A stretch of 64,000 nt of DNA. Source: Crossaster papposus (Eukaryota; Echinodermata; Asteroidea; Velatida; Solasteridae). Position numbers and translations under genes: made by a program. This document shows, piece by piece, positions 5,571-64,000 of this stretch; position 1 is the first letter of the stretch, and each line of letters begins with the position of its first letter. The notes below the pieces were generated by a model. That model was given only the letters and a program-made list of their open reading frames with translations, was not told the origin of the DNA and ran no database searches. Location of the stretch: NCBI GenBank assembly GCA_037893245.1, contig JBAIAA010000886.1, forward strand, positions 186,001-250,000, read 5' to 3'.

Positions 5571-5644
5571 TTTCTTTAATACACAAATAAACAACAAGGC
5601 AAACTGAGTATGTACAATTGCATACATTTCAAAGTAAACAATGA

Positions 5645-32119: not shown

Positions 32120-32755
32120 GCTGGGGTACGAGTTTACCCGGGTACGAGTTTACCCGGGTACGAGTTTTTACCCGGGTACGAGTTTTTACCCGGGTACGAG
32201 TTTTTACCCGGTTACGAGTTTTTACCCGGGTACGAGTTTTTACCCGGGTACGAGTTTTTACCCGGGTACGAGTTTTTACCCGGGTACGAGTTTTTACCCG
32301 GGTACGAGTTTTTTACCCGGGTACGAGTTTTTAACCCGGGTACGAGTTTTTAACCCGGGTACGAGTTTTTAACCCGGGTACGAGTTTTTACCCGGGTACG
32401 AGTTTTCACCCGGGTACGAGGTTTTCACCCGGGTACGAGGTTTTCACCCGGGTACGAGGTTTTCACCCGGGTACGAGTTTTCTCCGGGTACGAGTTTTCA
32501 CCCGGGAACGAGTTTTTACACGGGTACGAGTTTTTACACGGGTACGAGTTTTTACCCGGGTACGAGTTTTTACCCGGGTACGAGTTTTTACCCGGGTACG
32601 AGTTTTTACCCGGGTACGAGTTTTTACCCGGGTACGAGTTTTTACCCGGGTACGAGTTTACCCGGGTACGAGTTTACCCGGGTACGAGTTTACCCGGGTA
32701 CGAGTTTACTCGGGTACGAGTTGTTTTTACCCGGTACGAGTTGTTTTTACCCGGG
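32120..32755. repeat. minisatellite of GGGTACGAGTTTTTACCC units
   Basis: About 36 head-to-tail units of 16-20 bp. The core ACCCGGGTACGAGTT is constant and the T-run and spacer vary (TTTA, TTTTTA, TTTTCA, TTTTAA). Each unit carries the palindromes ACCCGGGT and GGGTACGAG/CTCGTACCC overlap. ORFs across it are artefacts. Confidence 0.95.
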
Positions 32756-32758
32756 TAC

Positions 32759-36296: not shown

Positions 36297-36655
36297 TCAA
36301 CTCGTACGCGAACCAACTCGTACGCGGGACAACTCGTACGCAGATTGGTCAACTTGTACGCGGGACAACTCGTACGCCAACCAACTCGTACGCCAACCAA
36401 CTCGAACGCCAACCAACTCGAACGCCAGCCAACTCGTACGCGGTTTGAAAATGTGGTTCACGGTTTGATAGTATTTTTAAGATAAAAAATATTTTGCACG
36501 CGTACGAGTTGGACCGCGTACGAGTTGGTTCGCATACGAGTTGGTTCGCATACGAGTTGGTTCGCATACGAGTTGGTTCGCATACGAGTTGGTTCGCATA
36601 CGAGTTGGTTCGCATACGAGTTGGTTCGCATACGAGTTGGTTCGCATACGAGTTG
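36297..36655. repeat. opposed minisatellite arms of CAACTCGTACGC units
   Basis: Left arm (36297-36440): about eight 16-18-bp units of CAACTCGTACGCCAAC type. Right arm (36500-36655): about nine units GAGTTGGTTCGCATAC in the opposite orientation. The spacer of about 60 bp has no repeats. Whole arms are mutually complementary, so the locus can form a hairpin. The core AACTCGTAC is shared with the locus at 31486-32755. Confidence 0.9.
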
Positions 36656-40220: not shown

Positions 40221-40628
40221 TCGAGTCCCTGCAAGTCCTTTCACAAGTCCTTGCACAAGTCCTTTCACAAGTCCTTTCACAAGTCCTTTCACAAGTCCTT
40301 TCACAAGTCCTTTCACAAGTCCTTTCACAAGTCCTTTCACAAGTCCTTTCACAAGTCCTTTCACAAGTCCTTTCACAAGTCCTTTCACAAGTCCTTTCAC
40401 AAGTCCTTTCACAAGTCCTTTCACAAGTCCTTTCACAAGTCCTTTCACAAGTCCTTTCACAAGTCCTTTCACAAGTCCAGTCACAAGTCCAGTCATAACG
40501 CCAGTCATAAGTAACTGGTTGAACAATGACAAAGGAATGCTTTTGTTAAAGCTCATTTGAATAGCTTGTGATTTGAATTGAAACTGGAAGACTTGTGATG
40601 GACTTGCAGGGACTTGCAGGGATTTGAC
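40221..40628. repeat. 12-bp minisatellite with short inverted arm
   Basis: About 22 head-to-tail units of TCCTTTCACAAG at 40230-40510, starting with GAGTCCCTGCAAGTCC. After about 80 bp of spacer, 40590-40628 holds the opposite orientation (ACTTGTGATGGACTTGCAGG, then GACTTGCAGG again). This is the same opposed-arm layout as at 31.5 and 36.3 kb, with a different unit. ORFs with HKSF or VLSQ repeats are artefacts. Confidence 0.9.
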
Positions 40629-43015: not shown

Positions 43016-43092
43016 CTGTAGAAGAAAAAAACCAAGAGAATGCTTACAAAAATCATTGTAGCTCAGACAACTATTTGAAATATTTCTGATAA

Positions 43093-43246
43093 TTAACCCT
43101 AACCCTCCAGGGTATTTTAGCTAGAAACCCTGCCAGGCACAACAGATTGCATACTTTGTCACATTGACTTGTGTGCAGGCAGAGTGCAGCAAGGTCAAGC
43201 AGTCACCAAAGATGCACTGTGCTGGATCTGGCAGGGTTAGGGTTAA
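43093..43246. mobile_element. TTAA-flanked MITE, in intron 2 of MULE gene
   Basis: 146 bp between TTAA sites with CCCTAACCCT ends. It is the inverted near-twin of 40896-41046, so the two MITEs bracket the terminal transposase exon. Confidence 0.8.
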
Positions 43247-45960: not shown

Positions 45961-46636
45961 TGTTTTGTGTGGCCAAACTTTTGTTCGAACAAAGTGCCCA
46001 TCGTCTTTTCGATTTCAAGAAAATACAAGAAAATACAGAGAATGCAGATTCGGTTACCACGTCCCCCATAGCCTTGTGTGCATTTGTCTGCCGTGTTTAT
46101 CCCGCGAGAAAAATAGTTGAATCTTGTTGTGCACATGCGCAGTTGGAATACCGAATTGGCTTATTGACAGATGCTAATTATGATGAAAGAACTGAGAAGA
46201 AAAGAAATTGAAAACCAGAAAGATGACTCGACACAATATTTCAAGGCTATTAGAAATATACAGCATACAGGCTCTTCATCATCTTAGATGCACTTGACGA
46301 GGGCTGGGCATTAATTATAAGGTAACAAAAAGGTAACATATTTGTATTGGATTCCACCTTTTTCCTCTAATTTCTTGGGAACGGAAGGTGCTTTGTTGCC
46401 TGTTGGCGGCTTTTGGTATTGAGCATGGTAAGAAAGAGGAAACCGATAAGAATACGAAAGAAGCTGTATTTGAGCCACATTTATGGGGCTAATTACTGCA
46501 CATGTGCAGTGCTGGCTATATCTACTGCCATATATTTAATTAACTCGGCCTAAGCCCTAGTAAATCATCAGCCCTAACGTATTAATGATGTTACTCACTG
46601 TTTACAGCATAAAATAATTGTCCTTGTTTTTAACAG

Positions 46637-46864
46637 ATTTCCAAAGAATCTTGAAGTCCTGACCACCGATTATGCAGCCACTGGGTCAAGCAGACCTAGG
46701 CGTATCAACCTTCTATGCTGCAGCTCACCCCCACGACCAATGCGGGCCAGACGGATTACCCCTGACCCCAAACTCCATCCAAATCCTGGGTCGGCTACAG
46801 AGGCTAAGGATACTCGGTCATCCCAGGCTGTGTCAGTATGTGGACATCGTTAGGGGAAAACATG
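46637..46864 (+). CDS. TBCK: TBCK exon 2, start codon and pseudokinase N-terminus
   Basis: Acceptor GTTTTTAACAG|, ATG at 46672, donor CATG|GTGAGA, phase 1. The 64 codons include GLPLTPNSIQILGRLQRL and HPRLCQYVDIVRGKH, which match the start of vertebrate TBCK closely from memory. TBCK is a pseudokinase/TBC/rhodanese protein of the FERRY complex that links early endosomes to mRNA and affects mTOR signalling. An upstream noncoding exon is required. Confidence 0.9.
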
Positions 46865-47190
46865 GTGAGATCATGACAAGGGGCCAGTTACTACACAGAG
46901 CATTGTTGTAATTGGCGATTGGTAAAACCCGGATCTCCCGGATCTAATGTTAACGCTAGTCAGACATTCGGACCTTCCCGGATCCTAAATAAAGAAGTTT
47001 CACCCTCAATGAAATAAAATAAATTGCATTTCAAAGTAGCCTTATTTTGGGGGGATTATAGAGTTAGGCCCAGTATTCTTTGAATGGGTTAGCATTAGGG
47101 CATAGGTAAGGTCCGAAGAGGTCCGGACGATCCGACTTCCACCCACACCCGTTGTAATGCATATTGCCCTGAACAAAGTTGGAAGTCACT

Positions 47191-47274
47191 GGCTGTGTCA
47201 GTATGTGGACATCGTTAGGGGAAAACATGGTGAGTTCATATCAAGGGGCCAGTTACTACACAGAGCATTGTTGT
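47191..47274 (+). repeat. duplicate of exon 2 3' end with its donor
   Basis: Copy of 46826-46911 shifted by 365 bp. It carries the last 39 bases of the exon, CATG|GTGAG and about 45 bases of the following intron, with few changes. It lacks an acceptor, so it is unlikely to be spliced as an exon. A short flanking sequence (GAACAAAGTTGRAAGTCACT) occurs on both sides of this copy. Confidence 0.85.
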
Positions 47275-47424
47275 AACATCCTGAACAAAGTTGAAAGTCA
47301 CTATTGGTACAGAGCTATTTTTAAAAAAATGAAAAGATGAGGAGGTAAATGATAAGAAAACTGTCTGAAAGTAAAGAATTAACATTCTTCTAAAAACAGG
47401 AAAGATCATAGGTTGGAAGGAAAC

Positions 47425-47640
47425 CAATTATACCCAGCACGATATGAGACCAAGGGGCTCCCCATTTAGTCCCCCCCCCTGTATTTATACACTCTTTAGA
47501 CTATTGTTACCTAACGCACCCCCCTAAAAAACCCAAAATAATCCCTGAAAAACCACAACATTCCACGAGCACAATGATCACCACAAAGGAGGGGCGGGGG
47601 TTGTCTCCATCTCATATCTTGCTTAATATGAAACCAATGA
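47425..47640. repeat. dispersed repeat (second copy of 26890 family)
   Basis: Same block order as 26890-27115, in TBCK intron 2. See that entry for the shared motifs. Confidence 0.65.
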
Positions 47641-47726
47641 TTGATTGGTCCCCACAGTACAGGGTGGGGGGGGGGGGGGATGCTGGAGCTATGCCACTGT
47701 CAAACACCCATATTTTTGAATTTCAG

Positions 47727-47799
47727 AAAGAGTTATGGTTGTCTGTGAGCATTACAAGAACAACGTCCACTTGGCAGTACAAAAAGGAGCTTACAAACA
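47727..47799 (+). CDS. TBCK: TBCK exon 3, pseudokinase
   Basis: 73 nt, acceptor TGAATTTCAG|, donor AAACA|GTAAGT; enters in phase 1 and leaves in phase 2. Encodes (E)RVMVVCEHYKNNVHLAVQKG, matching the hinge-like segment of TBCK (ER.VVV.EH). Confidence 0.85.
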
Positions 47800-48308
47800 G
47801 TAAGTTGTAAAAACAACCTTATTTAACCCTAACTTCATAGTGTAATTAAAACATTTTAAATAAACTCATATTAAATTTTAAAAAAAAATTAAAAAAAATT
47901 GTTTAACAACAGATTTGTTCATAATAATAACAATGGATGTTAACAAATAGGCACTTGGGGAGACAATCCCATAGAGATGTACACAAACTTAAAACAGTCC
48001 TAACTTGTTTACCCTAACCCCTTTCTCTTAGATCTTCGAGATTTATGCTATTTAGACCAAAATCTGTCGTTCTAGAGCAAAAATAACTCCCAAATATTGT
48101 TTTTTAGGATAGCTAGACACTTAGGGAGACACTGAAATGTCTTCCTAAGTGCCACTGTCTCCTTATTACCTAAAAACTTACGCTAATTTGTCTCCCCAAG
48201 TGCCTATTTGGAAGAATTGTAACTGAGATCTAATCTCTTTACATTATTATTATTATTTTGGCATCATTATTTACTATTGGTCTATTTTCATGAATTTGTC
48301 ACATACAG

Positions 48309-48423
48309 CTGGTCTAGTGTAATGCAGCTCATCTACGAGGTTCTAGAGGGACTGGTATGTTTGAATCACCATGGCTTAGTGCACAGGGCACTGTCACCAG
48401 CAAATATTCTTCTGGATACAGAG
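48309..48423 (+). CDS. TBCK: TBCK exon 4, degenerate catalytic loop
   Basis: 115 nt; acceptor GTCACATACAG|, donor ACAGAG|GTAACC, phase 0. Encodes [15 protein letters not shown] then [14 protein letters not shown]. The HRD catalytic Asp is Ala (HRA), as in vertebrate TBCK, so kinase activity is not expected. Confidence 0.9.
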
Positions 48424-48500
48424 GTAACCATTTAATAAATATTTAGCTTAGTTTGGACGTTAGCATTATTGGGTAAAAAATACCAGCTCTTCTCCTTAAA

Positions 48501-48867
48501 GGTAGGATACACCATTGGTAATTGCTTGAATTATCAAGAATGGGTGAAATTGGAGTGGGGGTTGTATTTTATAGTAAATATCGTTTAACTGACCTCTCCG
48601 AAGTTTTACAATATTGGATGCTGGGAAAGGCCAGAAAAACTGCATTCTTTTTTTACCCGGCGTCGGGCAGTTTTTCTTATGTTGTTTTTGTTTTTTCGCG
48701 ATCTCCATCTGGCGATTAATATTTTTTTATTTTGAAATCAGAACAATTACAGGATATCTAGCGCAATTATTTTGTTGGATGCCTAGAATCATTATTTACT
48801 TAATAAATAATTTTCTTAATAATTTATTAGTAAAATGTTTTGATATCTGCAAATGGTGTATCCTACC
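48501..48867. mobile_element. TIR element, GGTAGGATACACCATT family (intronic)
   Basis: Intact inverted ends GGTAGGATACACCATT and AATGGTGTATCCTACC (middle of the left end reads CATTGG), 367 bp, in intron 4. Inverted relative to the copies at 4677, 6820 and 8962. Confidence 0.8.
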
Positions 48868-48972
48868 ATGAAGGAGGGAATAGAATTCTAATTTAACGTA
48901 GCATGTTTAGAGGCAGAAATGTTCAAGATGTACTTTGTTCGTTTTTTTTTATTGTGTCTGATAAATCTTCAG

Positions 48973-49046
48973 GGTCATGTCAAGTTAGCTAATCACGGAC
49001 TGTATCACATGACACAATATGGCGTCTGTGTCACATTTCCTATCGG
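48973..49046 (+). CDS. TBCK: TBCK exon 5, degenerate DFG region
   Basis: 74 nt, acceptor AAATCTTCAG|, donor ATCGG|GTGAGT, phase 0 to 2. Encodes GHVKLANHGLYHMTQYG and VTFPIG. The DFG position reads NHG, another pseudokinase mark. Confidence 0.9.
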
Positions 49047-49678
49047 GTGAGTTAACACAACATATCTCACAAAAAGCTTAAAGAATAAAGTGCAAATTTA
49101 GAGCTAGCAACATCGCTGCCATATTTTGTGCCCACAAAGTCTTTACGGAAGTTGCTAATATTTTGTTTCCACCCAATTCTCCCCATTCAACCACAAACAT
49201 GAACACTGTTCCTGCCAAAGGCAACACAGTGCATAAGGTATATACAACTTTGTAGGACCCTACTGCATCGGATTCATCAACAGTTGTACATAAATGGCCA
49301 ATTCTGAGACAATTGGGGCTAGTGGATCATAGTACACTAGGCAGACCATTTAGTCTTTTTGTACATTGCGTTATGGGAACAATCCATAGGGTTTGTGTGC
49401 TAAGGCAAATCTCTCTAAACTTAAACTCAGAACATAAAATTCTAAAATGTTCAACATCACCCTAATTAATTTGTCTTCTTCTACATTTTGTTCTATTATA
49501 CCCTAACCCAATTTTACCTCTAAACCCCTTTACTGAAGACCCAACCTGCTATGGGGACACGGAAATGTCCCTATTACTCGGTCTGGTTTTCTTTCAAACA
49601 AAAGAACCTGTTCCCACAACTAGGTGGAGGCTAGAACTCTCATTTTGACTGTTGTTGCATGTTATTGCAGGGTTGCTG

Positions 49679-49982
49679 TTCAACAACAACTTGCTGTACC
49701 TAGATCTTACCGATCCTGGGGGGACAGATCTTTACGTGTAGCTTCCCCACGTCTGTGGAATAGTCTCCCTATTACTATCCGATCTAGCACATTTCTCAGC
49801 TTATTCAAATTGGCTCTAAAAACACACTACTTTAATCTAGCCTACACCACCAAATGAATTATCCTGATTGTCAGACTGAATGTTCATAGTGTATAGTATT
49901 TGGGTTTTTTTCTGCTGCAGCGTAATGAGCGCCTTATTTTAGGTGGATGTGTGTACATTATAAGTATTCATTATTATTATGT
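49679..49982 (+). mobile_element. CR1/L2-like LINE 3' end
   Basis: Ends of an RT ORF (SWGDRSLRVASPRLWNSLP, FLSLFKLALKTHYFN), then a 3' UTR (TAATGAGCGCC) and a short ATT-repeat tail. A 5'-truncated LINE copy in TBCK intron 5. Confidence 0.8.
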
Positions 49983-50034
49983 TATTTAATTGGGCTTGAG
50001 TTAACTCATTTCATGTTTCTGTGTCGCCCCCAAG

Positions 50035-50302
50035 TCACCCCCGTTACATGGCCCCTGAGGTCCTATCCAGTGGTCCCATCCAGCCTGACGACTCTGGCAC
50101 GCCCCTGATCCCATCAGGCCCCAAAGTAGACATCTGGTCACTAGGCATCATCGTCATGGAGATCTGTCTTGATCTAGATCTCTGGTCCTCATGTACGTTA
50201 CCCCAGCTCATCTCAAAGGTGCTGTTGCTAGGGAAACACAGCAATGGCATCCATTCCTTGGAAACCGTCTTGAGGGAGCACGGCACGCAGAACAAATTTC
50301 AA
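50035..50302 (+). CDS. TBCK: TBCK exon 6, APE/DxWSLG lobe
   Basis: 268 nt; acceptor CGCCCCCAAG| (AAG type), donor TTTCAA|GTGAGA, phase 2 to 0. Encodes HPRYMAPEVLSSG, SGPKVDIWSLGIIVMEICL and VLREHGTQNKF. The APE and D-x-WSLG blocks of the kinase C-lobe are intact. Confidence 0.92.
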
Positions 50303-50393
50303 GTGAGACTTACACAAAATATTGCCAATTATGATTGCTTTGTAAAACCTGTTGTTATTACGAATTGTACACTTGTTTCTGACATGCATTAAT

Positions 50394-50720
50394 AAAGGTG
50401 GCTTGTGTGTAAAGCGCTCACCTCACCAATGTGACACGGGTTCAATTCCCAGCCCGGACCATATGTAAGTAGAGTTGTGCGTTGGTTCTCTTCTTTGCCA
50501 AGAGGGTTTTCTCCGGGTCCTCCGGTTTTCTTCCTCTGGAAAAATCAAACACTTTTGATCTCAGGCAGGCTGTGCTCCGTAGTCATATATGAGTCGATGT
50601 GGCCGGCTTCCATAGATGCCTTTACGTGCCAGAGGCTTGACCATGTTGTAGCCGCGTTCTTCGCAATTCAGCACACCAGCTGCGAGTAAGGATGATTAGC
50701 CTCCCAAATTATTATTATTA
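50394..50720 (+). mobile_element. tRNA-derived SINE
   Basis: A tRNA-like head with B-box GGGTTCAATTCCC. The conserved-looking body GAGGGTTTTCTCCGGGTCCT / CCGGTTTTCTTCCTCT resembles a central domain found in SINEs of many marine animals (memory). Tail ATTATTATTATT. In TBCK intron 6, sense orientation, about 90 bases after the donor. Confidence 0.8.
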
Positions 50721-50884
50721 TTAAAGCTAGCAAACTAAATTATACAACAGCCAGTTTGGACATTGTATGTTGCAGCGCACAACAAATTCATCTCCGTTTG
50801 GAACTTAAAAAATTGACTTGTTTGCACTTGTTACTGGAAAATTGAGTAACTGTTTTCATAATCAGATGCCCTCATTTGTTTCAG

Positions 50885-50946
50885 GAGCTTCCGCAGTCCT
50901 TGCAGAGTTTTCTGAGGCAGTGCTTAACAGTTTCCCCAGATAAAAG
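50885..50946 (+). CDS. TBCK: TBCK exon 7
   Basis: 62 nt; acceptor TTTGTTTCAG|, donor AAAAG|GTGAGG, phase 0 to 2. Encodes ELPQSLQSFLRQCLTVSPDK, the C-lobe helix around the usual (CL..P..RP) block. Confidence 0.88.
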
Positions 50947-50964
50947 GTGAGGGAAATTTAGAGT

Positions 50965-51135
50965 CGGCTAAGATTTGGAGGGTTAGGGCTTTGAATCCAG
51001 CTGCTGGCAATATCATGTGTCCTTGGGCAAGCCACTTCACCCCACTTGCCTCTCCCCACCCAGGAGTATTAATGGGTAACAGCATTAGCTGAAGAGTAAC
51101 CTGCGATGGACTAGCATCACATCCAGGGGAATATA
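50965..51135 (+). mobile_element. SINE fragment
   Basis: Contains the body CTTGGGCAAGCCACTTCACC, GCCTCTCCCCACCCAGGAGT and GATGGACTAGCATCACATCC, shared in part with 56040-56205. tRNA-like remnants (GGTTAGGGCTTTGAATCC) lie at its 5' end. In TBCK intron 7. Confidence 0.7.
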
Positions 51136-51290
51136 AATACTCTGTCGTTTCATGCCAAGGAAACCTGCTTAAGCATAAAATGTTTCTTTAGCACAAAAAC
51201 TCTTACTTGGTAAATCAAGTTAGGAGCCGTAATTCCATGTGATCGTTATGCTAAGCTAACAACAGCTAATTACCAATCACAAATAATATA

Positions 51291-52259
51291 CCGTAATTTC
51301 CTGCGGTAAAGACGCGGCTTATCTGACTTTCTAGACCACAAAAACATCGCCGCGCCTTATCTTTCGGTGCGCCGTATATGATGTCGCTTGAGTTCAAAGT
51401 GATGGTCTTTGTGTGAAGAATTCTTTGAACGCCGCAATCTTACTCAATAATGCGGTCAACCAATTAGCTTAACTCTCCGGACATTGTGACCGTGTTTCCG
51501 TTAACAATGCTGCGATGTGTTGATCCCCCTACGACCGTACATACATACAGTACATGTGATTTAGCACTCGGCAGCGTGCGTAGTCTTGTTTGCAAGACGA
51601 TCTTCGCGATGCGGGGCGCCCTCTAACGTACGCCTTAGACCACGCGCGAATTACCGCATCGGCGGCCTAGCCTACGCGCGCTGCATATACCGCGATTAAG
51701 ATCGTCTTGCAAACAAGACTACAGCGTGCGCTGCATGACGCGTACAACAGCAATAAAAAGCAATTCACCATCCGAACTACACAGCGCGGAGCATTCACAA
51801 CGACTGGAAAAAAGACTAGGGGGTGTCGGAATTAGGGATACCCCGCACGCGATCGCTGCATGTGATGTACATGTGCATGTACATGTACATGTACATGCAT
51901 GCAGTTTATACTGCAGTGATACATGATATGGGTTTTTGGCAAAGTAAACCTCGTGCGATATTCAATTGTGACCACTGGTTTGAACTTTTCATACATTGTT
52001 TGCGTGCCAGATAAACTCAAGTACTCAGCAAATTCTTGCTTGGAATAGTGGGATCGTTCTAAGGCAACAAAATGACCCCTTTCTGGCGATGTACCTACAC
52101 CGGGTGGCGCCTGGTGTTCTTCTAGGTGCGTTCAAGCATGCGTTCAAGCATGCGCCTTTTTCGGCTGTGCGCTTTATCTGTTGACGTTTGAAATTTTTTG
52201 GGGTGATTTTAGGGACCTGCGCCTTAACCGCCGTGCGGCTTTACCGCAGGAAATTACGG
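51291..52259. mobile_element. middle element, CCGTAATTTCCTGCGG ends, TA target
   Basis: 969 bp with inverted ends CCGTAATTTCCTGCGGTAAA and their complement, flanked on both sides by TA. Such ends plus a TA duplication suggest a pogo/Tigger-type non-autonomous element (inference). It contains a CATGTA palindromic microsatellite near 51866-51905 and the inner MITE. Confidence 0.75.
51582..51719. mobile_element. inner MULE-like MITE with 9-bp target duplication
   Basis: Ends TAGTCTTGTTTGCAAGACGA and the reverse complement, followed inside by TCTT...GGGGCGCCCTCT. The 9 bases CAGCGTGCG lie directly outside both ends. A 9-bp duplication is typical of Mutator-like elements. Confidence 0.85.
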
Positions 52260-52469
52260 TACATCCCATAGAGTTGTGGCTGGTAAACTGGTTTTACTAA
52301 GCAATAATGTTTTGTGCTTAAGCAACTTTTATGCTTAAGCAGCTCTATGAAATTGTCCCTAACCTAGCGGCTGATCTGATGGGCTATATATTGGCTTGTG
52401 ACAGACTGTATTTCTTGTACCCATTCATGGAGTACATGTGACACTGTCTATTCTATTGTTTGTTTCCAG

Positions 52470-52621
52470 ACCCAGCCCCTCTGAGCTTCTTGCCAGTGAT
52501 CTCTTCAAAGACTACGACGCCTGTAAGCTACACCCTAAGAGCAATATGACCATGTTCCAGTACCCAGGCCTGAGATGTGAGGATCTACAACTTGACAAGT
52601 TCATCGAGAGTGTCAGAGAAG
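52470..52621 (+). CDS. TBCK: TBCK exon 8, end of pseudokinase
   Basis: 152 nt; acceptor GTTTGTTTCCAG|, donor AGAAG|GTAAGA, phase 2 to 1. Encodes (R)PSPSELLASDLFKDYDACK, NMTMFQYPGLRCEDLQLDKF and IESVRE. Its last 101 bases plus the donor are the template of the 131-bp array that follows. Confidence 0.9.
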
Positions 52622-53514
52622 GTAAGAGTGTGTCTTAACCGGGGGCTACACCTGTAAGCTACACCCTTGGAGCAATATGACCATGTTCCAGTACCCAGGC
52701 CTGAGATGTGAGGATCTACAACTTGACAAGTTCATCGAGAGTGTCAGAGAAGGTAAGAGTGTGTCTCAACCGGGGGCTACACCTGTAAGCTACACCCTTA
52801 GAGCAATATGACCATGTTCCAGTACCCAGGCCTAAGATGTGGGGATCTACAACTTGACAAGTTCATCGAGAGTGTCAGAGAAGGTAAGACTGTGTCTCAA
52901 CTGGGGGCTACACCTGTAAGCTACACCCTTAGGGCAATATGACCTTGTTCCAGTACCCAGGCCTAAGATGTGAGGATCTACAACTTGACAAGTTCATCGA
53001 GAGTGTCAGAGAAGGTAAGAGTGTGTCTCAACCGGGGGCTACACCTGTAAGCTACACCCTAAGAGCAATATGACCATGTTCCAGTACCCAGGCCTGAGAT
53101 GTGAGGATCTACAACTTGACAAGTTCATCGAGAGTGTCAGAGAAGGTAAGAGTGTGTCTCAACCGGGGGCTACACCTGTAAGCTACACCCTAAGAGCAAT
53201 ATGACCATGTTCCAGTACCCAGGCCTGAGATGTGAGGATCTACAACTTGACAAGTTCATCGAGAGTGTCAGAGAAGGTAAGAGTGTGTCTCAACCGGGGG
53301 CTACACCTGTAAGCTACACCCTTAGAGCAATATGACCATGTTCCAGTACCCAGGCCTAAGATGTGAGGATCTACAACTTGACAAGTTCATCGAGAGTGTC
53401 AGAGAAAGTAAGACTGTGTCTCAACCGGGGGCTACACCTGTAAGCTACACCCTTAGAGCTATATGACCATGTTCCAGTACCCAGGCCTAAGATGTGAGGA
53501 TCTACAACTTGACT
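52521..53514 (+). repeat. 131-bp tandem array spanning exon 8 / intron 8 junction
   Basis: Eight head-to-tail units starting at 52521, 52652, 52783, 52914, 53045, 53176, 53307 and 53438, each exactly 131 bp apart. The first unit is the real exon end. Every full unit repeats 101 bases of exon, GAAG|GTAAGA and 25-30 bases of intron; one (near 53404) has lost the donor G (GAAAGTAAG). The last unit is cut by the LINE fragment at 53515. The exon part within the copies is strongly conserved, with few changes. Confidence 0.97.
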
Positions 53515-53790
53515 TTTTCATGTGCCGCTCCCGAACTCTGGAACAAACTACCCTTTGAAATTCGTCAGTCATCATCATTGTCTGTATTTAAATCTTCTCT
53601 GAAAACCCACATGTTTAACTCGCGGTTTTGTGATTAATAGATAGGTATTATCAACAACAACAACAACAACAAAACAACAAATCTGTTAACCAAATTTAAT
53701 TTATTGTTTTGTATTGTGCGCCATGAGCGTCTTGCTTGGCGGATACCAGCGCCTTATAAATGTTCATTATTATTATTATTAACAAATGTT
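53515..53790 (+). mobile_element. CR1/L2-like LINE 3' end
   Basis: RT C-terminus (FSCAAPELWNKLPFEIRQSS, LSVFKSSLKTHMFN), then an AAC-repeat, TGAGCGTCTTGCTTGGCGG, and an ATT-repeat tail. It begins exactly where the 131-bp array stops. Confidence 0.85.
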
Positions 53791-53822
53791 CTTGAATGCC
53801 TCGTGTTGTCTACCATCCCTAG

Positions 53823-53961
53823 AATCCACTGAGGATCACTTAGAGCTGCGGTCCATCACTGAGGTGTACTACCTGTGGGGTCTAGCTGGAGGAGATCTGG
53901 AGGCTGAACTCAGAAAGAAGGGTCTTCTACGAAGCAGTCCTTCCATCTGTAACTTAGCAGG
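53823..53961 (+). CDS. TBCK: TBCK exon 9, linker region
   Basis: 139 nt; acceptor TACCATCCCTAG|, donor GCAGG|GTAAGT, phase 1 to 2. Encodes [20 protein letters not shown] and LLRSSPSIC, matching the conserved TBCK segment EEVYYLWCLAGGDLE. Confidence 0.93.
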
Positions 53962-54013
53962 GTAAGTGAAAGATGCAAGGTAAGATTGCACCTAAAAAGT
54001 AACCTAACTAAAA

Positions 54014-54248
54014 GTGAACAAAGAAATTGGCAAGGTGGGACTCGAACCTGCGACCTGCGGAATACCGGACGGGTGCTCTACCAACTGAGCTTTCTTCTCC
54101 CATGTTTACGGTCTCCCAAACTGTCAGTTTCTTTGTTCGAGAGCGCTTGTCAGAATTCATAAACACCAGAATGCTGTGTGGCCAGGGATCGCGCCCAATT
54201 TTACGATACAACCTGGGAAACGACATTGTGGGGATCACTCAATGAGGA
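54014..54248 (-). mobile_element. tRNA-derived SINE-like repeat in TBCK intron 9
   Basis: Same two-part repeat as in the 3.3-10 kb tandem segments. Minus-strand tRNA-like module at 54028-54098 (AAGCTCAGTTGGTAGAGCAC, B-box GGTTCGAGTCC) and the CTCATTGAGTGATCCCCAC part. Inverted ten-mers, TTCTTTGTTC / GAACAAAGAA, flank the module. Confidence 0.7.
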
Positions 54249-54811
54249 TACAACTTTGTATCTATTATCTATTTGTGTATAATAAGATAAACAGCCAATT
54301 TTGTTGTTCAAATCTTACTTGATGTAAAGGTATTGACGGCTGAAAAAACCTGAAAACCTTTTGTTGGGATTAAAAACGTGAGAAGTAAACAATAGACCCC
54401 ATGATCACTTTGTGTAATACAGGAAAAGGGACTTGTTGTACTTTCTACATTTTTTCTTCAAAAAAAAAGGTTTCCCGTCTTCAGGCCTCACAGTGTTATT
54501 CCTTCTGACATGCTGTTATTTTGAAGAAAATAATTGAAAAAGTTCAAAAATGCATCTCAGAGACGCATTTTGGGAAATTGTCATTTAGTACTTGGATAAG
54601 TTATCTTTGCAGTGTTTAACCTTTGGTTTGCAACATTCTCCAAAACTCTGCAATATTTTAAATGTTGCTCAAGCTGTGAAGTCGATGGCCTTCAATAGAG
54701 CAAGGATAAATGAATGAATGTTGTCAAATTGAAAAAACAAATTGTGCCCGTGGGCACTTTTTTGGTAAAATAAATGATCTCTGATAAGCGAAATGTTGAC
54801 TTTCTTTGTAG

Positions 54812-54961
54812 TTTGGTGACAGAGTTTGGTGATGTGATGGGTTTAGAGAGAGACAGTAGCTCCTTATATGATGACACGGTGGTGACGTTGTCAATGACAC
54901 AGCTTAAGACACGTCTGATGAACATTGACAATACTGCCTTCTATCCGCTGTTGGAGGATGA
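54812..54961 (+). CDS. TBCK: TBCK exon 10, linker region
   Basis: 150 nt; acceptor TTTCTTTGTAG|, donor GATGA|GTGAGT, phase 2 to 2. Encodes LERDSSSLYDDTVVTLSMTQ and FYPLLEDE, which line up with the vertebrate RDRSSLLDDTTVTLS and FYPLLEDD. Confidence 0.93.
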
Positions 54962-55049
54962 GTGAGTTTATAAACTGTGGATAATATTCACTCGATCATT
55001 AACTTTTATGTCTCAAAAACGTTAGTTTCCTTGGACTGTGTTACAAGAT

Positions 55050-55291
55050 TTAACCAGTTCGCGCCGGATGACGTATATAAACGCAAAAATTTCCCCAAAT
55101 TCAAAACGGATTACGCATAAACACGCCAAGTTCAAGTTCAGAAATGTCTGTCAGCAGCGCGCAAGGCCGGAAATACGTGGGTGTGCTCCCCGGCACTATC
55201 AGCCTGAACCCGCTTCGGATCGAGTTTCGTTAAAAATAATCCCGCCCGTGGGCTTGGCGATGTTAAAATAATCCCGGCGCGAACTGGTTAA
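55050..55291. mobile_element. intact TTAA-flanked MITE, CCAGTTCGCGCCGG ends
   Basis: 234 bp between TTAA sites; perfect 14-bp ends CCAGTTCGCGCCGG / CCGGCGCGAACTGG. Diverged relatives at 13395-13705 and 56530-56775. piggyBac-type by target site (inference). Confidence 0.85.
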
Positions 55292-55839
55292 TAAAAGTAA
55301 AATGCGTTAGGTGCGACTTCTACGTGACTATAGCCCAACTGATCTGTAGAACGAGGAAAGTAGAACTAAGAGAATGGGTTCTAGACTCCCAACTTTTAAA
55401 CATTTCTTGTGCTTTCTTGGATTTTCTTGTGCAAAATGTTGCCCATTTGAATTACTAACCGATCCATTGGTTTTGGGGGGTTTGTTTGACAACATAACAA
55501 TTTATCTTTTTTGAGAGAATTTTGTTGTTGTTGAAAGTTTATAAATACTGCATGTATTTCTTCTTCTTCATTTTTTTCGCAATGCTTTTGATCTCTGATG
55601 GGTTTATTCTAAGTATTTTTAATAAATGTTATTCGTATGTAACATTATTATTATTAGTAGTATTTCTTTCTGATCCTGATTTGTAATTTTGATGCTTTCT
55701 CGTGTTTTTAATGCGATGTATTTTTAATGAATATATTTTCTGTGTAATACTTTTTTTAACGATGTAATTCTGATTTGAATTGTAATTTTAATGTATTTGC
55801 TGATTTTAATGGATTTTAAATCAACACTATTTTTCATGC

Positions 55840-55922
55840 CCAGTTGTATTGTACAGCACATTTGAATATATTTATATAGAATTTGTGCTAAACAAATATC
55901 ATTATTATTATTATTAATACAG
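55840..55922 (+). mobile_element. LINE/SINE 3' tail forming exon 11 splice acceptor
   Basis: TTTGTGCTAAACAAATATC followed by (ATT)n, the usual 3' end of CR1/L2-type copies, runs directly into TAATACAG|, the acceptor of exon 11. The element tail therefore supplies the sequence just upstream of a working splice site. Confidence 0.6.
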
Positions 55923-56022
55923 AAAGAACCCAATAAACCTGCCGACATCCGCCAGCTCCAATGATCTGTCAGAGACCGCCAGTCTACCACTCATCATCAG
56001 AGAAAAGGACATTGAATATCAG
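55923..56022 (+). CDS. TBCK: TBCK exon 11
   Basis: 100 nt; acceptor AATACAG|, donor TATCAG|GTAGAT, phase 2 to 0. Encodes [20 protein letters not shown] and IREKDIEYQ, the conserved lead-in to the TBC domain. Confidence 0.92.
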
Positions 56023-56039
56023 GTAGATAGACTGCTAAC

Positions 56040-56205
56040 TGGATCAAGGCTGTGGGGCACTGTGGTACATGGTTACGGTGTTTGACTCTAGGTGGGTTAG
56101 AACCCTACCAGGCAACATGGTGCTTGTGTTCTTAGGCAAGACACTTTGCTACAATTGCCTCTCTCCACCCCAGTAATGGGTACCTCCAAACACTTCCAAA
56201 CAGCC
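56040..56205 (+). mobile_element. SINE fragment
   Basis: tRNA-like head with GGGTTAGAACCC, then CTTAGGCAAGACACTTTGCT and CCTCTCTCCACCCCAGTAAT, the same body as 50965-51135. Lies 18 bases after the exon 11 donor. Confidence 0.65.
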
Positions 56206-56347
56206 TCGTTAATGTGAACTTATTTGTCAGTTACTTTTTAATAACTTCTCGGGGGGAAATATCCTGGAAACTTCCCTCATAACGAAAGAAATTGTGAATT
56301 CACAGTGCAAAGCCTGAAGGTAACCAATCTTTTTCTTGACCTTGTAG

Positions 56348-56482
56348 TTTCATCGCGTGGTCTTATATGACCGGCTACTGCGTGGCTACCCATACACCAT
56401 CGGTCGAGTCTTTCGCGAGTCACGCATAGACACCCCGCCATTGTACAGACCTGAAGTGTGGGCTGCATTGCTAGCAGTTGAG
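56348..56482 (+). CDS. TBCK: TBCK exon 12, TBC domain start
   Basis: 135 nt; acceptor TGACCTTGTAG|, donor GTTGAG|GTAAGT, phase 0. Encodes FHRVVLYDRLLRGYPYTIGR and IDTPPLYRPEVWAALLAVE, the R-x-x-W-x-x-L entry motif of TBC Rab-GAP domains. Confidence 0.93.
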
Positions 56483-56529
56483 GTAAGTTACTGGACCAGG
56501 ATGACATTTCTTGTTTGTAACGATTTCTC

Positions 56530-56775
56530 TCCTCAACCACTTTGCGTCAGATGACGTGTTTACACAGAAAAGTTTTTTTACGGGAATTCAAAATGAATGA
56601 CGAATAAACACGCCACAAGAAAGGCCGGAAAGATCTGTCAGTGACCACCTCGCAGCGAGCGAGACCGGAAATATCAGGGTGTGCTATCCACAAATGCTGG
56701 CCTGAACCCATCTCCGATCGAGGTTTATGAAAAACAATCTCGCGCCCGAGTCTGGTCAATGTCAAAATAAAGAGG
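56530..56775. mobile_element. diverged copy of TTAA-flanked MITE family
   Basis: Shares ATGACGTRTWTA, GGCCGGAAAGATCTGTCAG/GGTGTGCT and CTGAACCCRTCTCCGATCGA type blocks with 55050-55291, but the ends have decayed. In intron 12, orientation the same as 55050. Confidence 0.6.
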
Positions 56776-56814
56776 ACAGCAAGATGATTTTGATCTTTTT
56801 TTGGTTTGAATCAG

Positions 56815-57004
56815 GGTGATTTCAAGGACATGTATGACAGCATTGACAAGGAGACCCCTACAACTACAGACAGACAGATTGAAGTAGACATCCCACGTTG
56901 TCATCAGTACAGCGAGCTCCTCTCGTCTCCTGATGCTCACCGGAAATTCAAGCGGATACTTAAGGCTTGGGTGGTATCACACCCTCATCTGTCTTACTGG
57001 CAAG
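56815..57004 (+). CDS. TBCK: TBCK exon 13, TBC catalytic fingers
   Basis: 190 nt; acceptor TTTGAATCAG|, donor GGCAAG|GTGGGT, phase 0 to 1. Encodes [20 protein letters not shown] and the end HLSYWQ. The I-x-x-D-x-x-R arginine finger (IEVDIPR) and the Y-x-Q glutamine finger (YWQ) are both present, so Rab-GAP activity is plausible. Confidence 0.95.
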
Positions 57005-57286
57005 GTGGGTGTGGCTTGTGTCATAAGACTTTGAACACAAGAAGTTTATAAGGCTTCGTTTTTTGTCTTTGTCTAACGATATATACCTGATGCAAATGTG
57101 AATGCAAATTGAAATTAGCATCAGGAATGATTCACTACGAAATTCACTGGAAAGTTTGGGCAACAGCTTGGCACATCCTTGGCGCTTTAGGTACTACACA
57201 TTTCCCAGGTTTAAAATGCCATGTCCCACATTACGATGATCAGTTAATGTATGTCAACTTTGACGAGTTCTTTCTTTATATCACAG

Positions 57287-57337
57287 GTCTTGACTCCCTA
57301 AGTGCTCCATTTCTATTTCTCAATTTCAACAATGAAG
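57287..57337 (+). CDS. TBCK: TBCK exon 14, TBC domain
   Basis: 51-nt microexon-sized exon; acceptor TTTATATCACAG|, donor ATGAAG|GTAATG, phase 1 to 1. Encodes (G)LDSLSAPFLFLNFNNE, nearly the vertebrate GLDSLCAPFLYLNFNNE. Confidence 0.93.
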
Positions 57338-57586
57338 GTAATGTTGTATTCGCTTGTTTCTCAATTACTTCATGACTAGTTGAGATGTTACGAGTCTTGA
57401 TATTTTCCCGTATTGATGATTTCCTGGGCACTATTCAGGGTCCCTCTATTTACACACTTTGTCAACTCTACAGCATAGAGTTCATATTCTTGATTCTCAC
57501 AAATTATCAGGCATTATCATATCTTTTTCATAGTTCCAGGCTCTAGAAATCAATGGCTTTTTGTCAATTTGTTATTTAATTTACAG

Positions 57587-57670
57587 CCCTGGCCTATACC
57601 TGCCTGTCAGCCTTCATCCCTAAGTACTTATATAAGTTCTTCATGAAAGACAACTCAGCTGTCATACAAG
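57587..57670 (+). CDS. TBCK: TBCK exon 15, TBC domain
   Basis: 84 nt; acceptor ATTTAATTTACAG|, donor ACAAG|GTTTGT (weaker donor), phase 1 to 1. Encodes [20 protein letters not shown] and KDNSAVIQ. Confidence 0.93.
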
Positions 57671-57744
57671 GTTTGTTATAAGAATATTGAATTTTAAATT
57701 TACATCTCCCAACGCAAATGCCATCTTATGAATATCTTGGTTAC

Positions 57745-57835
57745 CATACCTAAACTGGCTAGCTCGGTGGTCAAGTAGTTAAGACTCTGCTCAAGAAAGC
57801 AGAATGTCTCGGGTTCGGGTCCCATTTGAGTAGTT
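57745..57835 (+). mobile_element. tRNA-like SINE in TBCK intron 15
   Basis: TGGCTAGCTCGGTGGTCAAG (A-box region) and B-box GGTTCGGGTCC are correctly spaced for a tRNA-like promoter; the anticodon arm is irregular. Probably a 5' SINE part and not a tRNA gene. Confidence 0.6.
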
Positions 57836-58095
57836 TATGAATTGTTTTCACAATCACTCTGGATACAGTGTTTATAAAACATGCTGTTAAAAGAGAAACC
57901 AAATATGGAATTTACATCACCCTAACGCAAATTCTGCATACCAAACAACTCTAATGCAAGCGGTGTACACCCAATTTTCAGCATTCAGACCTTTTTTCAG
58001 CATTTCAAATTTGCTACGACTAAAATGTGTTTTAGTTTTAGTGGGAAGATCACTTCTTGATTGCCAATCGGTGATGATTTGATTCTTTTGTACAG

Positions 58096-58218
58096 AGTAC
58101 TTGGCTGTGTTCTCGCACCTGATAGCATTTCACGACCCGGAGCTGAGTAATCACATGAACAGTATCGGGTTTATACCGGAGCTCTATGCCATACCCTGGT
58201 TCCTGACAATGTTCTCAC
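58096..58218 (+). CDS. TBCK: TBCK exon 16, TBC domain (last exon seen)
   Basis: 123 nt; acceptor TTTTGTACAG|, donor TCTCAC|GTAAGT, phase 1 to 1. Encodes [20 protein letters not shown] and [18 protein letters not shown]. Vertebrate TBCK continues MFTHVFPLHK in the next exon, which is not in the window. Reading through the donor gives TCA-CGT-AAG-TTT-TAA, a stop after three codons, so the splice is essential. Its last 48 bases seed the array to the right. Confidence 0.94.
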
Positions 58219-61200
58219 GTAAGTTTTAATGGTACCTTGCTCTATGACATCACCCTTATACCGGAGCTCTACGCTATACCTTGGCTCCTGACAATGTTCT
58301 CACGTAAGTTTTAATGGTACCTTGCTCTACGACATCACCCTTATACCGGAGCTCTATGCCATACCCTGGTTCCTGACAATGTTCTCACGTAAGTTTTAAT
58401 GGTACCTTGCTCTATGACATCACCCTTATACCGGAGCTCTACGCCATACCCTGGTTCCTGACAATGTTCTCACGTAAGTTTTAATGGTACCTTGCTCTAC
58501 GACATCACCCTTATACCGGAGCTCTATGCCATACCTTGGTTCCTGACAATGTTCTCACGTAAGTTTTAATGGTACCTTGCTCTATGACATCACCCTTATA
58601 CCGGAGCTCTATGCTATACCTTGGTTCCTGACAATGTTCTCACGTAAGTTTTAATGGTACCTTGCTCTACGACATCACCCTTATACCGGAGCTCTATGCT
58701 ATACCTTGGTTCCTGACAATGTTCTCACGTAAGTTTTAATGGTACCTTGCTCTATGACATCACCCTTATACCGGAGCTCTATGCTATACCTTGGTTCCTA
58801 ACAATGTTCTCACGTAAGTTTTAATGGTACCTTGCTCTACGACATCACCCTTATACCGGAGCTCTATGCCATACCTTGGTTCCTGACAATGTTCTCACGT
58901 AAGTTTTAATGGTACCTTGCTCTACGACATCACCCTTATACCGGAGCTCTATGCCATACCCTGGTTCCTGACAATGTTCTCACGTAAGTTTTAATGGTAC
59001 CTTGCTCTACGACATCACCCTTATACCGGAGCTCTATGCTATACCTTGGTTCCTGACAATGTTCTCACGTAAGTTTTAATGGTACCTTGCTCTATGACAT
59101 CACCCTTATACCGGAGCTCTATGCCATACCTTGGTTCCTAACAATGTTCTCACGTAAGTTTTAATGGTACCTTGCTCTATGACATCACCCTTATACCGGA
59201 GCTCTATGCTATACCTTGGTTCCTAACAATGTTCTCACGTAAGTTTTAATGGTACCTTGCTCTACGACATCACCCTTATACCGGAGCTCTATGCTATACC
59301 TTGGTTCCTGACAATGTTCTCACGTAAGTTTTAATGGTACCTTGCTCTACGACATCACCCTTATACCGGAGCTCTATGCCATACCTTGGTTCCTGACAAT
59401 GTTCTCACGTAAGTTTTAATGGTACCTTGCTCTACGACATCACCCTTATACCGGAGCTCTATGCCATACCCGGGTTCCTGACAATGTTCTCACGTAAGTT
59501 TTAATGGTACCTTGCTCTACGACATCACCCTTATACCGGAGCTCTATGCTATACCTTGGTTCCTGACAATGTTCTCACATAAGTTTTGACGGTACCTTGC
59601 TCTATGACATCACCCTTATACCGGAGCTCTATGCCATACCCTGGTTCCTGACAATGTTCTCACGTAAGTTTTAATGGTACCTTGCTGTACGACATCACCC
59701 TTATACCGGAGCTCTATGCCATACCTTGGTTCCTGACAATGTTCTCACGTAAGTTTTAATGGTACCTTGCTGTACGACATCACCCTTATACCGGAGCTCT
59801 ATGCCATACCTTGGTTCCTGACAATGTTCTCACGTAAGTTTTAATGGTACCTTGCTCTATGACATCACCCTTATACCGGAGCTCTATGCCATACCTTGGT
59901 TCCTGACAATGTTCTCACGTAAGTTTTAATGGTACCTTGCTCTATGACATCACCCTTATACCGGAGCTCTATGCTATACCTTGGTTCCTGACAATGTTCT
60001 CACGTAAGTTTTAATGGTACCTTGCTCTATGACATCACCCTTATACCGGAGCTCTATGCCATACCTTGGTTCCTGACAATGTTCTCACGTAAGTTTTAAT
60101 GGTACCTTGCTCTACGACATCACCCTTATACCGGAGCTCTATGCCATACCCTGGTTCCTGACAATGTTCTCACGTAAGTTTTAATGGTACCTTGCTGTAC
60201 GACATCACCCTTATACCGGAGCTCTATGCCATACCTTGGTTCCTGACAATGTTCTCACGTAAGTTTTAATGGTACCTTGCTCTATGACATCACCCTTATA
60301 CCGGAGCTCTATGCCATACCTTGGTTCCTAACAATGTTCTCACGTAAGTTTTAATGGTACCTTGCTCTACGACATCACCCTTATACCGGAGCTCTATGCT
60401 ATACCTTGGTTCCTGACAATGTTCTCACATAAGTTTTGACGGTACCTTGCTCTATGACATCACCCTTATACCGGAGCTCTATGCTATACCTTGGTTCCTG
60501 ACAATGTTCTCACGTAAGTTTTGATGGTACCTTGCTCTACGACATCACCCTTATACCGGAGCTCTATGCCATACCCTGGTTCCTGACAATGTTCTCACGT
60601 AAGTTTTAATGGTACCTTGCTCTACGACATCACCCTTATACCGGAGCTCTATGCCATACCCTGGTTCCTGACAATGTTCTCACGTAAGTTTTAATGGTAC
60701 CTTGCTCTATGACATCACCCTTATACCGGAGCTCTATGCCATACCTTGGTTCCTGACAATGTTCTCACGTAAGTTTTAATGGTACCTTGCTCTATGACAT
60801 CACCCTTATACCGGAGCTCTACGCCATACCCTGGTTCCTGACAATGTTCTCACGTAAGTTTTAATGGTACCTTGCTCTACGACATCACCCTTATACCGGA
60901 GCTCTATGCCATACCTTGGTTCCTGACAATGTTCTCACGTAAGTTTTAATGGTACCTTGCTGTACGACATCACCCTTATACCGGAGCTCTATGCCATACC
61001 TTGGTTCCTGACAATGTTCTCACGTAAGTTTTAATGGTACCTTGCTCTATGACATCACCCTTATACCGGAGCTCTATGCCATACCTTGGTTCCTAACAAT
61101 GTTCTCACGTAAGTTTTAATGGTACCTTGCTCTACGACATCACCCTTATACCGGAGCTCTATGCTATACCTTGGTTCCTGACAATGTTCTCACATAAGTT

Positions 61201-64000
61201 TTGACGGTACCTTGCTCTATGACATCACCCTTATACCGGAGCTCTATGCTATACCTTGGTTCCTGACAATGTTCTCACGTAAGTTTTAATGGTACCTTGC
61301 TCTATGACATCACCCTTATACCGGAGCTCTATGCCATACCTTGGTTCCTGACAATGTTCTCACGTAAGTTTTGATGGTACCTTGCTCTACGACATCACCC
61401 TTATACCGGAGCTCTATGCTATACCTTGGTTCCTGACAATGTTCTCACGTAAGTTTTAATGGTACCTTGCTCTACGACATCACCCTTATACCGGAGCTCT
61501 ATGCCATACCTTGGTTCCTGACAATGTTCTCACGTAAGTTTTGATGGTACCTTGCTCTACGACATCACCCTTATACCGGAGCTCTATGCCATACCTTGGT
61601 TCCTGACAATGTTCTCACGTAAGTTTTAATGGTACCTTGCTCTACGACATCACCCTTATACCGGAGCTCTATGCTATACCTTGGTTCCTGACAATGTTCT
61701 CACGTAAGTTTTAATGGTACCTTGCTCTATGACATCACCCTTATACCGGAGCTCTATGCCATACCCTGGTTCCTGACAATGTTCTCACGTAAGTTTTAAT
61801 GGTACCTTGCTCTACGACATCACCCTTATACCGGAGCTCTATGCCATACCTTGGTTCCTGACAATGTTCTCACGTAAGTTTTAATGGTACCTTGCTCTAT
61901 GACATCACCCTTATACCGGAGCTCTATGCCATACCTTGGTTCCTGACAATGTTCTCACGTAAGTTTTAATGGTACCTTGCTCTACGACATCACCCTTATA
62001 CCGGAGCTCTACGCCATACCTTGGTTCCTGACAATGTTCTCACGTAAGTTTTAATGGTACCTTGCTGTACGACATCACCCTTATACCGGAGCTCTATGCC
62101 ATACCTTGGTTCCTGACAATGTTCTCACGTAAGTTTTAATGGTACCTTGCTCTACGACATCACCCTTATACCGGAGCTCTATGCTATACCTTGGTTCCTG
62201 ACAATGTTCTCACGTAAGTTTTAATGGTACCTTGCTCTACGACATCACCCTTATACCGGAGCTCTACGCCATACCCTGGTTCCTGACAATGTTCTCACGT
62301 AAGTTTTAATGGTACCTTGCTCTACGACATCACCCTTATACCGGAGCTCTATGCCATACCTTGGTTCCTGACAATGTTCTCACGTAAGTTTTAATGGTAC
62401 CTTGCTCTACGACATCACCCTTATACCGAAGCTCTACGCCATACCTTGGTTCCTGACAATGTTCTCACGTAAGTTTTAATGGTACCTTGCTCTACGACAT
62501 CACCCTTATACCGGAGCTCTATGCCATACCTTGGTTCCTGACAATGTTCTCACGTAAGTTTTAATGGTACCTTGCTCTATGACATCACCCTTATACCGGA
62601 GCTCTACGCTTTACCCTGGTTCCTGACAATGTTCTCACGTAGGTTTTGATGGTACCTTGCTGTACGACATCACCCTTATACCGAAGCTCTACGCTTTACC
62701 CTGGTTCCTGACAATGTTCTCACGTAAGTTTTAATGGTACCTTGCTCTACGACATCACCCTTATACCGGAGCTCTACGCTATACCTTGGTTCCTGACAAT
62801 GTTCTCACGTAAGTTTTAATGGTACCTTGCTCTATGACATCACCCTTATACCGGAGCTCTATGCCATACCTTGGTTCCTGACAATGTTTTCACGTAAGTT
62901 TTAATGGTACCTTGCTCTATGACATCACCCTTATACCGGAGCTCTATGCCATACCTTGGTTCCTGACAATGTTTTCACGTAAGTTTTAATGGTACCTTGC
63001 TCTATGACATCACCCTTATACCTGAGCTCTATGCCATACCCTGGTTCCTGACAATGTTCTCACGTAAGTTTTAATGGTACCTTGCTCTACGATATCACCC
63101 TTATACCGGAGCTCTATGCTATACCTTGGTTCCTAACAATGTTCTCACGTAAGTTTTAATGGTACCTTGCTCTATGACATCACCCTTATACCGGAGCTCT
63201 ACGCTATACCTTGGTTCCTAACAATGTTCTCACGTAAGTTTTAATGGTACCTTGCTCTATGACATCACCCTTATACCGAAGCTCTATGCCATACCCTGGT
63301 TCCTGACAATGTTCTCACGTAAGTTTTAATGGTACCTTGCTGTACGACATCACCCTTATACCGGAGCTCTATGCCATACCTTGGTTCCTAACAATGTTCT
63401 CACGTAAGTTTTGATGGTACCTTGCTGTACGACATCACCCTTATACCGAAGCTCTACGCTTTACCCTGGTTCCTGACAATGTTCTCACGTAAGTTTTAAT
63501 GGTACCTTGCTCTACGACATCACCCTTATACCGGAGCTCTATGCCATACCTTGGTTCCTGACAATGTTCTCACGTAAGTTTTAATGGTACCTTGCTCTAT
63601 GACATCACCCTTATACCGGAGCTCTATGCCATACCTTGGTTCCTGACAATGTTCTCACGTAAGTTTTGATGGTACCTTGCTGTACGACATCACCCTTATA
63701 CCGAAGCTCTACGCTTTACCCTGGTTCCTGACAATGTTCTCACGTAAGTTTTAATGGTACCTTGCTCTACGACATCACCCTTATACCGGAGCTCTATGCC
63801 ATACCTTGGTTCCTGACAATGTTCTCACGTAAGTTTTAATGGTACCTTGCTCTATGACATCACCCTTATACCGGAGCTCTATGCCATACCCTGGTTCCTG
63901 ACAATATTCTCACGTAAGTTTTAATGGTACCTTGCTCTATGACATCACCCTTATACCGGAGCTCTACGCTATACCTTGGTTCCTAACAATGTTCTCACGT
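58171..64000 (+). repeat. 85-bp tandem array of exon 16 3' end plus 5' splice site
   Basis: At least 68 complete units, exactly 85 bp each. TTATACCGGAGCTC starts at 58171, 58256, 58341 and, 68 periods later, at 63951, so there is no net indel over 5.8 kb. Each unit contains 48 bases of exon (TTATACCGGAGCTC...TTCTCAC), the donor GTAAGTTTTAATGG and the spacer TACCTTGCTCTACGACATCA. Variation is by substitution only at a few sites (TACGCC/TATGCC/TATGCT, CCCTGG/CCTTGG, CTGAC/CTAAC, CTCTAC/CTGTAC). A few units have a mutated donor (CACATAAG near 59577, 60427 and 61192). The array continues past the window end. Confidence 0.98.

Follow-up and report, generated by a model that had tools for sequence, protein, structure and literature searches.

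A minisatellite made of a TBCK exon end and its splice donor in the sea star Crossaster papposus

Introduction

How does a cell choose a 5' splice site when the one that yields the normal protein is the first in a long series of nearly identical copies? The question is raised by a 64,000-nucleotide (nt) stretch of the genome of the sea star Crossaster papposus (assembly GCA_037893245.1, contig JBAIAA010000886.1, positions 186,001 to 250,000 of the forward strand; hereafter the window, to which positions refer unless another contig is named), whose + strand carries the larger 5' part of the TBCK gene and in which the end of a TBCK exon, together with its donor, is repeated in tandem dozens of times. 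There is a precedent for such structures: the accessible text of PMC3087553 reports that intron-exon boundaries, of both types, are duplicated in minisatellite-like fashion in the globin genes of amphioxus, and cites the earlier "mirages" of Adh3. According to the same text, the Adh3 data and reverse-transcription PCR on globin transcripts suggest regular splicing, and mirages may seed new introns, while the accessible part of PMC3902484 adds PGBD5 and troponin C to the amphioxus cases and reports normal splicing. Here, we argue that the TBCK array is probably a very large mirage, whose first donor is used through exon definition and which is a tolerated by-product of duplication.

Results

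Tandem Repeats Finder places the array at 58171-64000, with a period of 85 base pairs (bp), 68.6 copies, 96% matches and 0% indels. When sliced, it yields 68 complete units inside the window, followed by the first 50 bases of a 69th, again without indels; in each unit the last 48 nt of exon 15 are followed by 37 intron nt, namely the donor GTAAGT and 31 more bases. The array's similarity extends for another 19 bases beyond the window, to the equivalent of window position 64019. Beyond the last donor there are 59 nt that close with a pyrimidine tract and AG (TTTCTCCAG), this acceptor ending at the equivalent of 64057, and then the next TBCK exon. The distance from the first donor to the acceptor is 5,839 nt, or 68 x 85 + 59, and this single acceptor faces 69 donors, of which 65 read GTAAGT, three ATAAGT and one GTAGGT. 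As in a mirage, the tandem unit straddles an exon-intron boundary and the authentic junction lies at the array's edge, with unit 1 being the exon end and the next acceptor following the last unit. The first junction is presumably the one used. Past the first donor, an in-frame stop follows after 8 nt, at 58227, and the use of any decoy donor would add at least 85 nt, this stop included.

Much of this had been anticipated by a sequence-only reading of the stretch, which proposed that the gene is TBCK, that a unit with the last 48 coding bases of one of its exons and the donor recurs at least 68 times without a net indel, that the intron consequently begins with dozens of intact decoy exon ends and donors, and that any later donor would retain an in-frame stop; all of these points were borne out. 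It had numbered the exon and intron 16; the exon end is real, although the exon is the fifteenth when counted from the start codon in our gene model. Likewise, its start of the array at 58171 stands, whereas the end moves from 64000 to the equivalent of 64019. The genome search that it recommended returned 69 matches of the 85-bp unit in the whole assembly (1.02 Gb in 1,841 contigs), at that search's sensitivity, and all of them lie on this contig.

The TBCK gene at this locus looks functional. Fifteen coding exons were located by their splice signals and by a tblastn search with a TBCK protein, and once spliced they give a stop-free frame of 636 amino acids in which Pfam detects the kinase and RabGAP-TBC domains (TBC being PF00566). 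Among the best 120 of 757 matches to this query in a large protein set, sea stars took the first two places, the crown-of-thorns sea star Acanthaster planci with 88% and Asterias rubens with 81%, in each case along the entire query. The best 60 of 86 matches of the kinase exon to solved structures were other kinases only. Five more TBCK coding blocks lie beyond the window, downstream on the contig. It is the open frame, these downstream blocks and the 88% match over the full query that make the gene appear functional. Were the locus instead a dead copy of TBCK, the array would be irrelevant; we found no point in support of this, and with a frame open over 15 exons, conserved blocks downstream and an 85-bp unit seen at this locus only, we give it practically no chance. 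A search of the assembly for the TBC family returned 45 matches, at least two of which, those here, are TBCK exons.

The units of the array share a mean pairwise identity of 96.5%, and the 68 full ones comprise 30 distinct sequences, the most frequent of which occurs in 10 copies. Their variants stand in mosaic order: the longest recurring run spans three units (shuffled orders: mean 2.2, maximum 4), and no long block duplications beyond chance were found within the array. Shuffled variants without long repeated blocks fit an exchange of few units, unlike the block copying expected of an assembler. An assembly artefact, in which few copies are true or units were multiplied by the assembler, draws on the fact that we have one assembly and one haplotype, and on the recurrence of a three-unit run at lag 9. 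Yet repeated runs stay within the shuffle range among the mosaic of distinct units, unique TBCK sequence is joined at both array ends and similarly built arrays exist elsewhere in the assembly, which makes an artefact quite improbable. Protein-changing variants occur in 9 of the 68 units, 7 of these 9 falling within units 51-68, and unit 1 is not diverged. At the unit joint, an 18-nt segment (Table 1) resembles bases of the same exon, as a templated filler would.

Table 1. Positions of the duplicated exon ends and related features
Feature	Position	Strand	Basis
TBCK exon 1, coding part	46672..46864	+	Gene model
Single 86-bp copy (96.5%) of 46826-46911, i.e. exon 1 end and donor	47191..47276	+	Self-comparison
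TBCK exon 7	52470..52621	+	Gene model
Second donor array, 131-bp unit x 7.6	52517..53513	+	Tandem Repeats Finder, sequence
TBCK exon 15 (counted from start codon); last 48 nt are array unit 1	58096..58218	+	636-amino-acid open frame, PF00566
85-bp array, 68 full units and start of 69th	58171..64000	+	Repeat finder, slicing, assembly search
First donor GTAAGT, the one yielding normal protein	58219..58224	+	Sequence; in-frame stop 8 nt past donor
18-nt filler at unit joint, resembling same-exon bases GCTCTATGCCATACCCT with one mismatch and one gap	58239..58256	+	Local alignment
Start of 69th donor; beyond the window 59-nt intron-like stretch, acceptor, TBCK exon 16 (VFPLHKIFHLWD...)	63999..64000	+	Contig sequence
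Acceptor-type array in a TBC-domain gene (L030), 13 x 112 bp	C258:1683661 region		
LARS1 exon end (L087), donor-array matches over ~2.6 kb	C927:261200-262300, matches to 264688		

The array is not an isolated case, as two more TBCK exon ends and further genes of this genome show the same arrangement. At exon 7, the 131-bp unit starts with 105 nt from the exon's end and continues with GTAAGA and intron bases; its last copy breaks off ahead of the donor. Five of the 8 copies, each of the five a decoy, have an in-frame stop, and 8 of 9 variable exonic sites are non-synonymous (1 of 9 synonymous), which argues that the exon 7 decoys are untranslated. The copy of the exon 1 end lies 365 bp downstream, between 23-nt direct repeats (47168-47190 and 47280-47302), and looks like a templated insertion. 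Duplicated, donor-bearing ends are thereby found in 3 of the 15 TBCK exons of the window. When 46000-58340 was compared with itself (filtered for low complexity, minimum length 35 bp, E no higher than 1e-4), no direct repeats other than these three reached 85% identity; two more stood at 80% and 67%. A rough post hoc geometry (15 donors, 11.5 kb, units of 85-131 bp), which ignores the choice of gene, gives ~0.002 for three random repeats all falling on donors. Further downstream, none of the local repeats listed reaches the five later TBCK coding blocks. Besides, the exon 7 array breaks off within a copy and is followed at 53514-53640 by what appears, by eye, to be the 3' end of an open frame of a long interspersed element (LINE).

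Beyond TBCK, the genome was searched for three perfect AGGTAAGT at gaps of 70-100 nt; all counts are lower bounds. At least 86 matches fell into 22 arrays, 17 of them with long units and five with a short period; the former, plus an NSF array from a stricter search, make up 18 loci, the exon side of each of which was inspected or scored. Clear protein matches were obtained for six of the 18 (NSF, LARS1, SDE2, PTGR3, dynein light intermediate chain and a crotonase), two further exons match the CASP C-terminal and PH domains below the Pfam cut-off, and the remaining ten are without a protein match or were not tried. Seventeen peptides from the exons at non-TBCK donor arrays (all loci but L079) were submitted to Pfam, and 12 of them returned nothing; three of these 12 match solved structures (NSF, PTGR3 and LARS1), three gave nothing usable and six were not tried further. 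NCBIfam returned nothing for two donor-array exon peptides.

At 15 of 16 scored loci and, by eye, at locus L072, the first donor is directly preceded by 90 nt or more of open frame (taking the best frame of the three), whereas at window controls the same test succeeds for 0.55 of random points and 0.52 of AGGT sites (P ~0.0003-0.0005 for 16/17). The repeat begins 16-102 nt before the donor and the unit extends 5-100 nt past it at 17 of the 18 loci, the exception being L074, where a GTGAGT donor precedes the counted donors. Acceptors can be duplicated as well: in another TBC gene, 13 units of 112 bp cover the acceptor and exon start, with the true exon being the last copy.

As to how common such arrays are, there were 20 matches, in 4 arrays, to the triple CAGGTAAGT and 58 to its reverse, and for the triple AGGTAAGT the figures are 86 and 1,184, with motif-match counts dominated by long arrays and the controls counted by match. 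Because the reversed-motif controls outnumber the donor motif and long arrays dominate the counts, we claim no genome-wide enrichment. Among 60 sampled loci (30 TBC and 30 myosin, namely those with loci of 45 TBC and 91 myosin matches, several common to one contig and gene), a repeat overlapped the exon match at two, one being TBCK, and at none of the 30 myosin loci; a boundary-type repeat in 1 of the 59 other sampled exon loci likewise speaks against a general enrichment.

The window holds further repeats and open frames. A segment of ~2.1 kb is present in tandem at 4384-10005 (97% identity), and more minisatellites with units of 12-52 bp lie at 32124-32758, 33558-33956, 36499-36655 and 40232-40490; many of the sampled loci elsewhere in the genome contain local repeats, too. 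On the + strand, adjoining open frames at 18655-21754 resemble a reverse transcriptase (629 amino acids) and a tyrosine recombinase (390 amino acids), by eye a DIRS/Ngaro-like element, and on the - strand an open frame of 603 amino acids (41309-43120) has FLYWCH and MULE transposase domains.

Discussion

We propose that the minisatellite was born from a tandem duplication that reached from inside the coding exon to some dozens of bases within the intron, which would have put copies of the exon's end, with the 5' splice site, into the intron. The length of 5,839 nt, equal to 68 x 85 + 59, is most simply explained if an ancestral intron of ~59 nt grew by whole units; repeated unequal exchange or slippage might have lengthened it to its present size and homogenised the units. 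Exon definition would then match the acceptor at the front of the 123-nt exon to the donor nearest to it, and that donor would also be the first to emerge in transcription, leaving all later donors as intronic decoys whose use would entail a premature stop and presumably mRNA decay. On this view, the array would most likely be tolerated as a by-product of duplication at work in this lineage and would not be a regulator. NSF, LARS1, SDE2 and dynein light intermediate chain are essential or widely conserved genes. Since exons matching NSF, LARS1 and SDE2, which we assume to be working copies, carry the same kind of array, the cell presumably ignores the decoys.

Several observations weigh against this account. 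The exon 15 donor is not strong, with a U1 duplex of -5.7 kcal/mol that ties for third weakest of 15, and 65 of the 69 donors, the first included, agree in their 13-nt context and in the energy of U1 pairing. Should short introns in this organism be recognised by intron definition, this would favour the last donor, whose intron would measure 59 nt. Besides, 6 of 11 variable exonic sites in the exon 15 array are synonymous, against 2.8 expected (P ~0.036), as are 5 of 7 sites variable in at least two units (1.9 expected, P ~0.016) and 4 of 6 in at least three (P ~0.044), an excess that is not expected from an untranslated array by itself. It might reflect proximal units exchanging sequence with the working exon, for which it is weak evidence, the test being small and the exon 7 array showing the opposite.

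The likeness of the donors also bears on whether the array could be costly or regulatory, with decoy-using transcripts gaining the stop at 58227 and being destroyed, and TBCK output falling with allele length. The first donor and 64 others being alike over 13 nt and in U1 pairing, the one acceptor seen after 69 donors and the stop that decoy use brings 8 nt past the exon all fit such a role; we nevertheless deem it unlikely, as the same arrangement is found at exons matching NSF and LARS1, where strong loss should harm, and as normal mRNA is reported for amphioxus mirages. Alternatively, decoy units might be spliced in as extra exons or mark the birth of introns. Intron gain from mirages is proposed in the accessible text of PMC3087553, and human exon-boundary repeats can form new introns according to that of PMC2812944. 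Here, however, the consensus unit, by eye, contains a single AG outside the donor (CCGGAG), without a good tract before it, the period of 85 is not a multiple of 3 and read-through of unit 1 stops at once, rendering extra exons exceedingly improbable.

Two other ideas about the donors were dropped: titration of U1, given a few dozen sites in one transcript, and recursive splicing, given that the exon ends in CAC with no AG ahead of the donor.

The array amounts to a natural competition experiment, in which one acceptor meets 69 donors, 65 of them with identical 13-nt context, that differ mainly in order and distance. Donor choice among equals, be it through exon definition, transcription order or nearness to the acceptor, thus becomes measurable from RNA reads. 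The array also suggests a route from a 59-nt intron to one of 5.8 kb. A wider generalisation is tentative and perhaps doubtful: a process might repeatedly create and expand minisatellites exactly at exon-intron boundaries, above all at donors, in many essential genes, so that splicing would have to keep strictly to the nearest donor (exon definition) even among scores of identical rivals, and mirages might be an old deuterostome trait, not an amphioxus peculiarity.

As for precedents, the literature on minisatellites, splice donors, mirages and intron gain yielded no TBCK case in searches that did not name TBCK, and that on echinoderms and sea stars no boundary minisatellite by title or abstract start, subscription journals being mostly uncovered. 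The claim of the sequence-only reading that no case is described in TBCK is hence not contradicted, although the kind is known from the accessible reports on amphioxus mirages and, by title, from the minisatellite of the human interferon-induced gene 6-16 (G1P3/IFI6). The TBCK array is probably a giant member of this known kind, in a phylum without an earlier report in the literature searched, and it likely extends boundary-spanning minisatellites from amphioxus to an echinoderm.

The 6-16 minisatellite reportedly has a 12-bp unit and donors that are used alternatively, and intron gain by tandem genomic duplication is said to follow an AGGT model. Going by its title, the former gives multiple splice donors in one transcript, as here. 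In the latter, going by the accessible text of PMC4974935, a splice signal is copied by tandem duplication, again as here; that process makes a new intron, whereas in TBCK, on our reading, an existing intron was lengthened, the 59-nt remnant with its acceptor suggesting an old one. In human segmentally duplicated genes, internal tandem repeats at exon-intron boundaries can alter splicing (PMC2812944, accessible text), yet, unlike in TBCK, their units average 30 bp in about four copies, in recent paralogues, and novel introns are possible.

The closest likeness is to the amphioxus mirages. Those of Adh3 and of BflGb6 and BflGb9 likewise consist, as far as the accessible text describes them, of tandem copies of donor or acceptor regions that cross the exon-intron boundary, and the AG or GT signals survive in many of the copies. 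The TBCK array has 69 copies of 85 bp, whereas the two haplotypes of BflGb6 have 6 and 3 units of 150-160 bp, and it differs from the amphioxus mirages further in its sea-star host, in the three exon ends affected within one gene and in the intact, intron-like 59 nt at its end.

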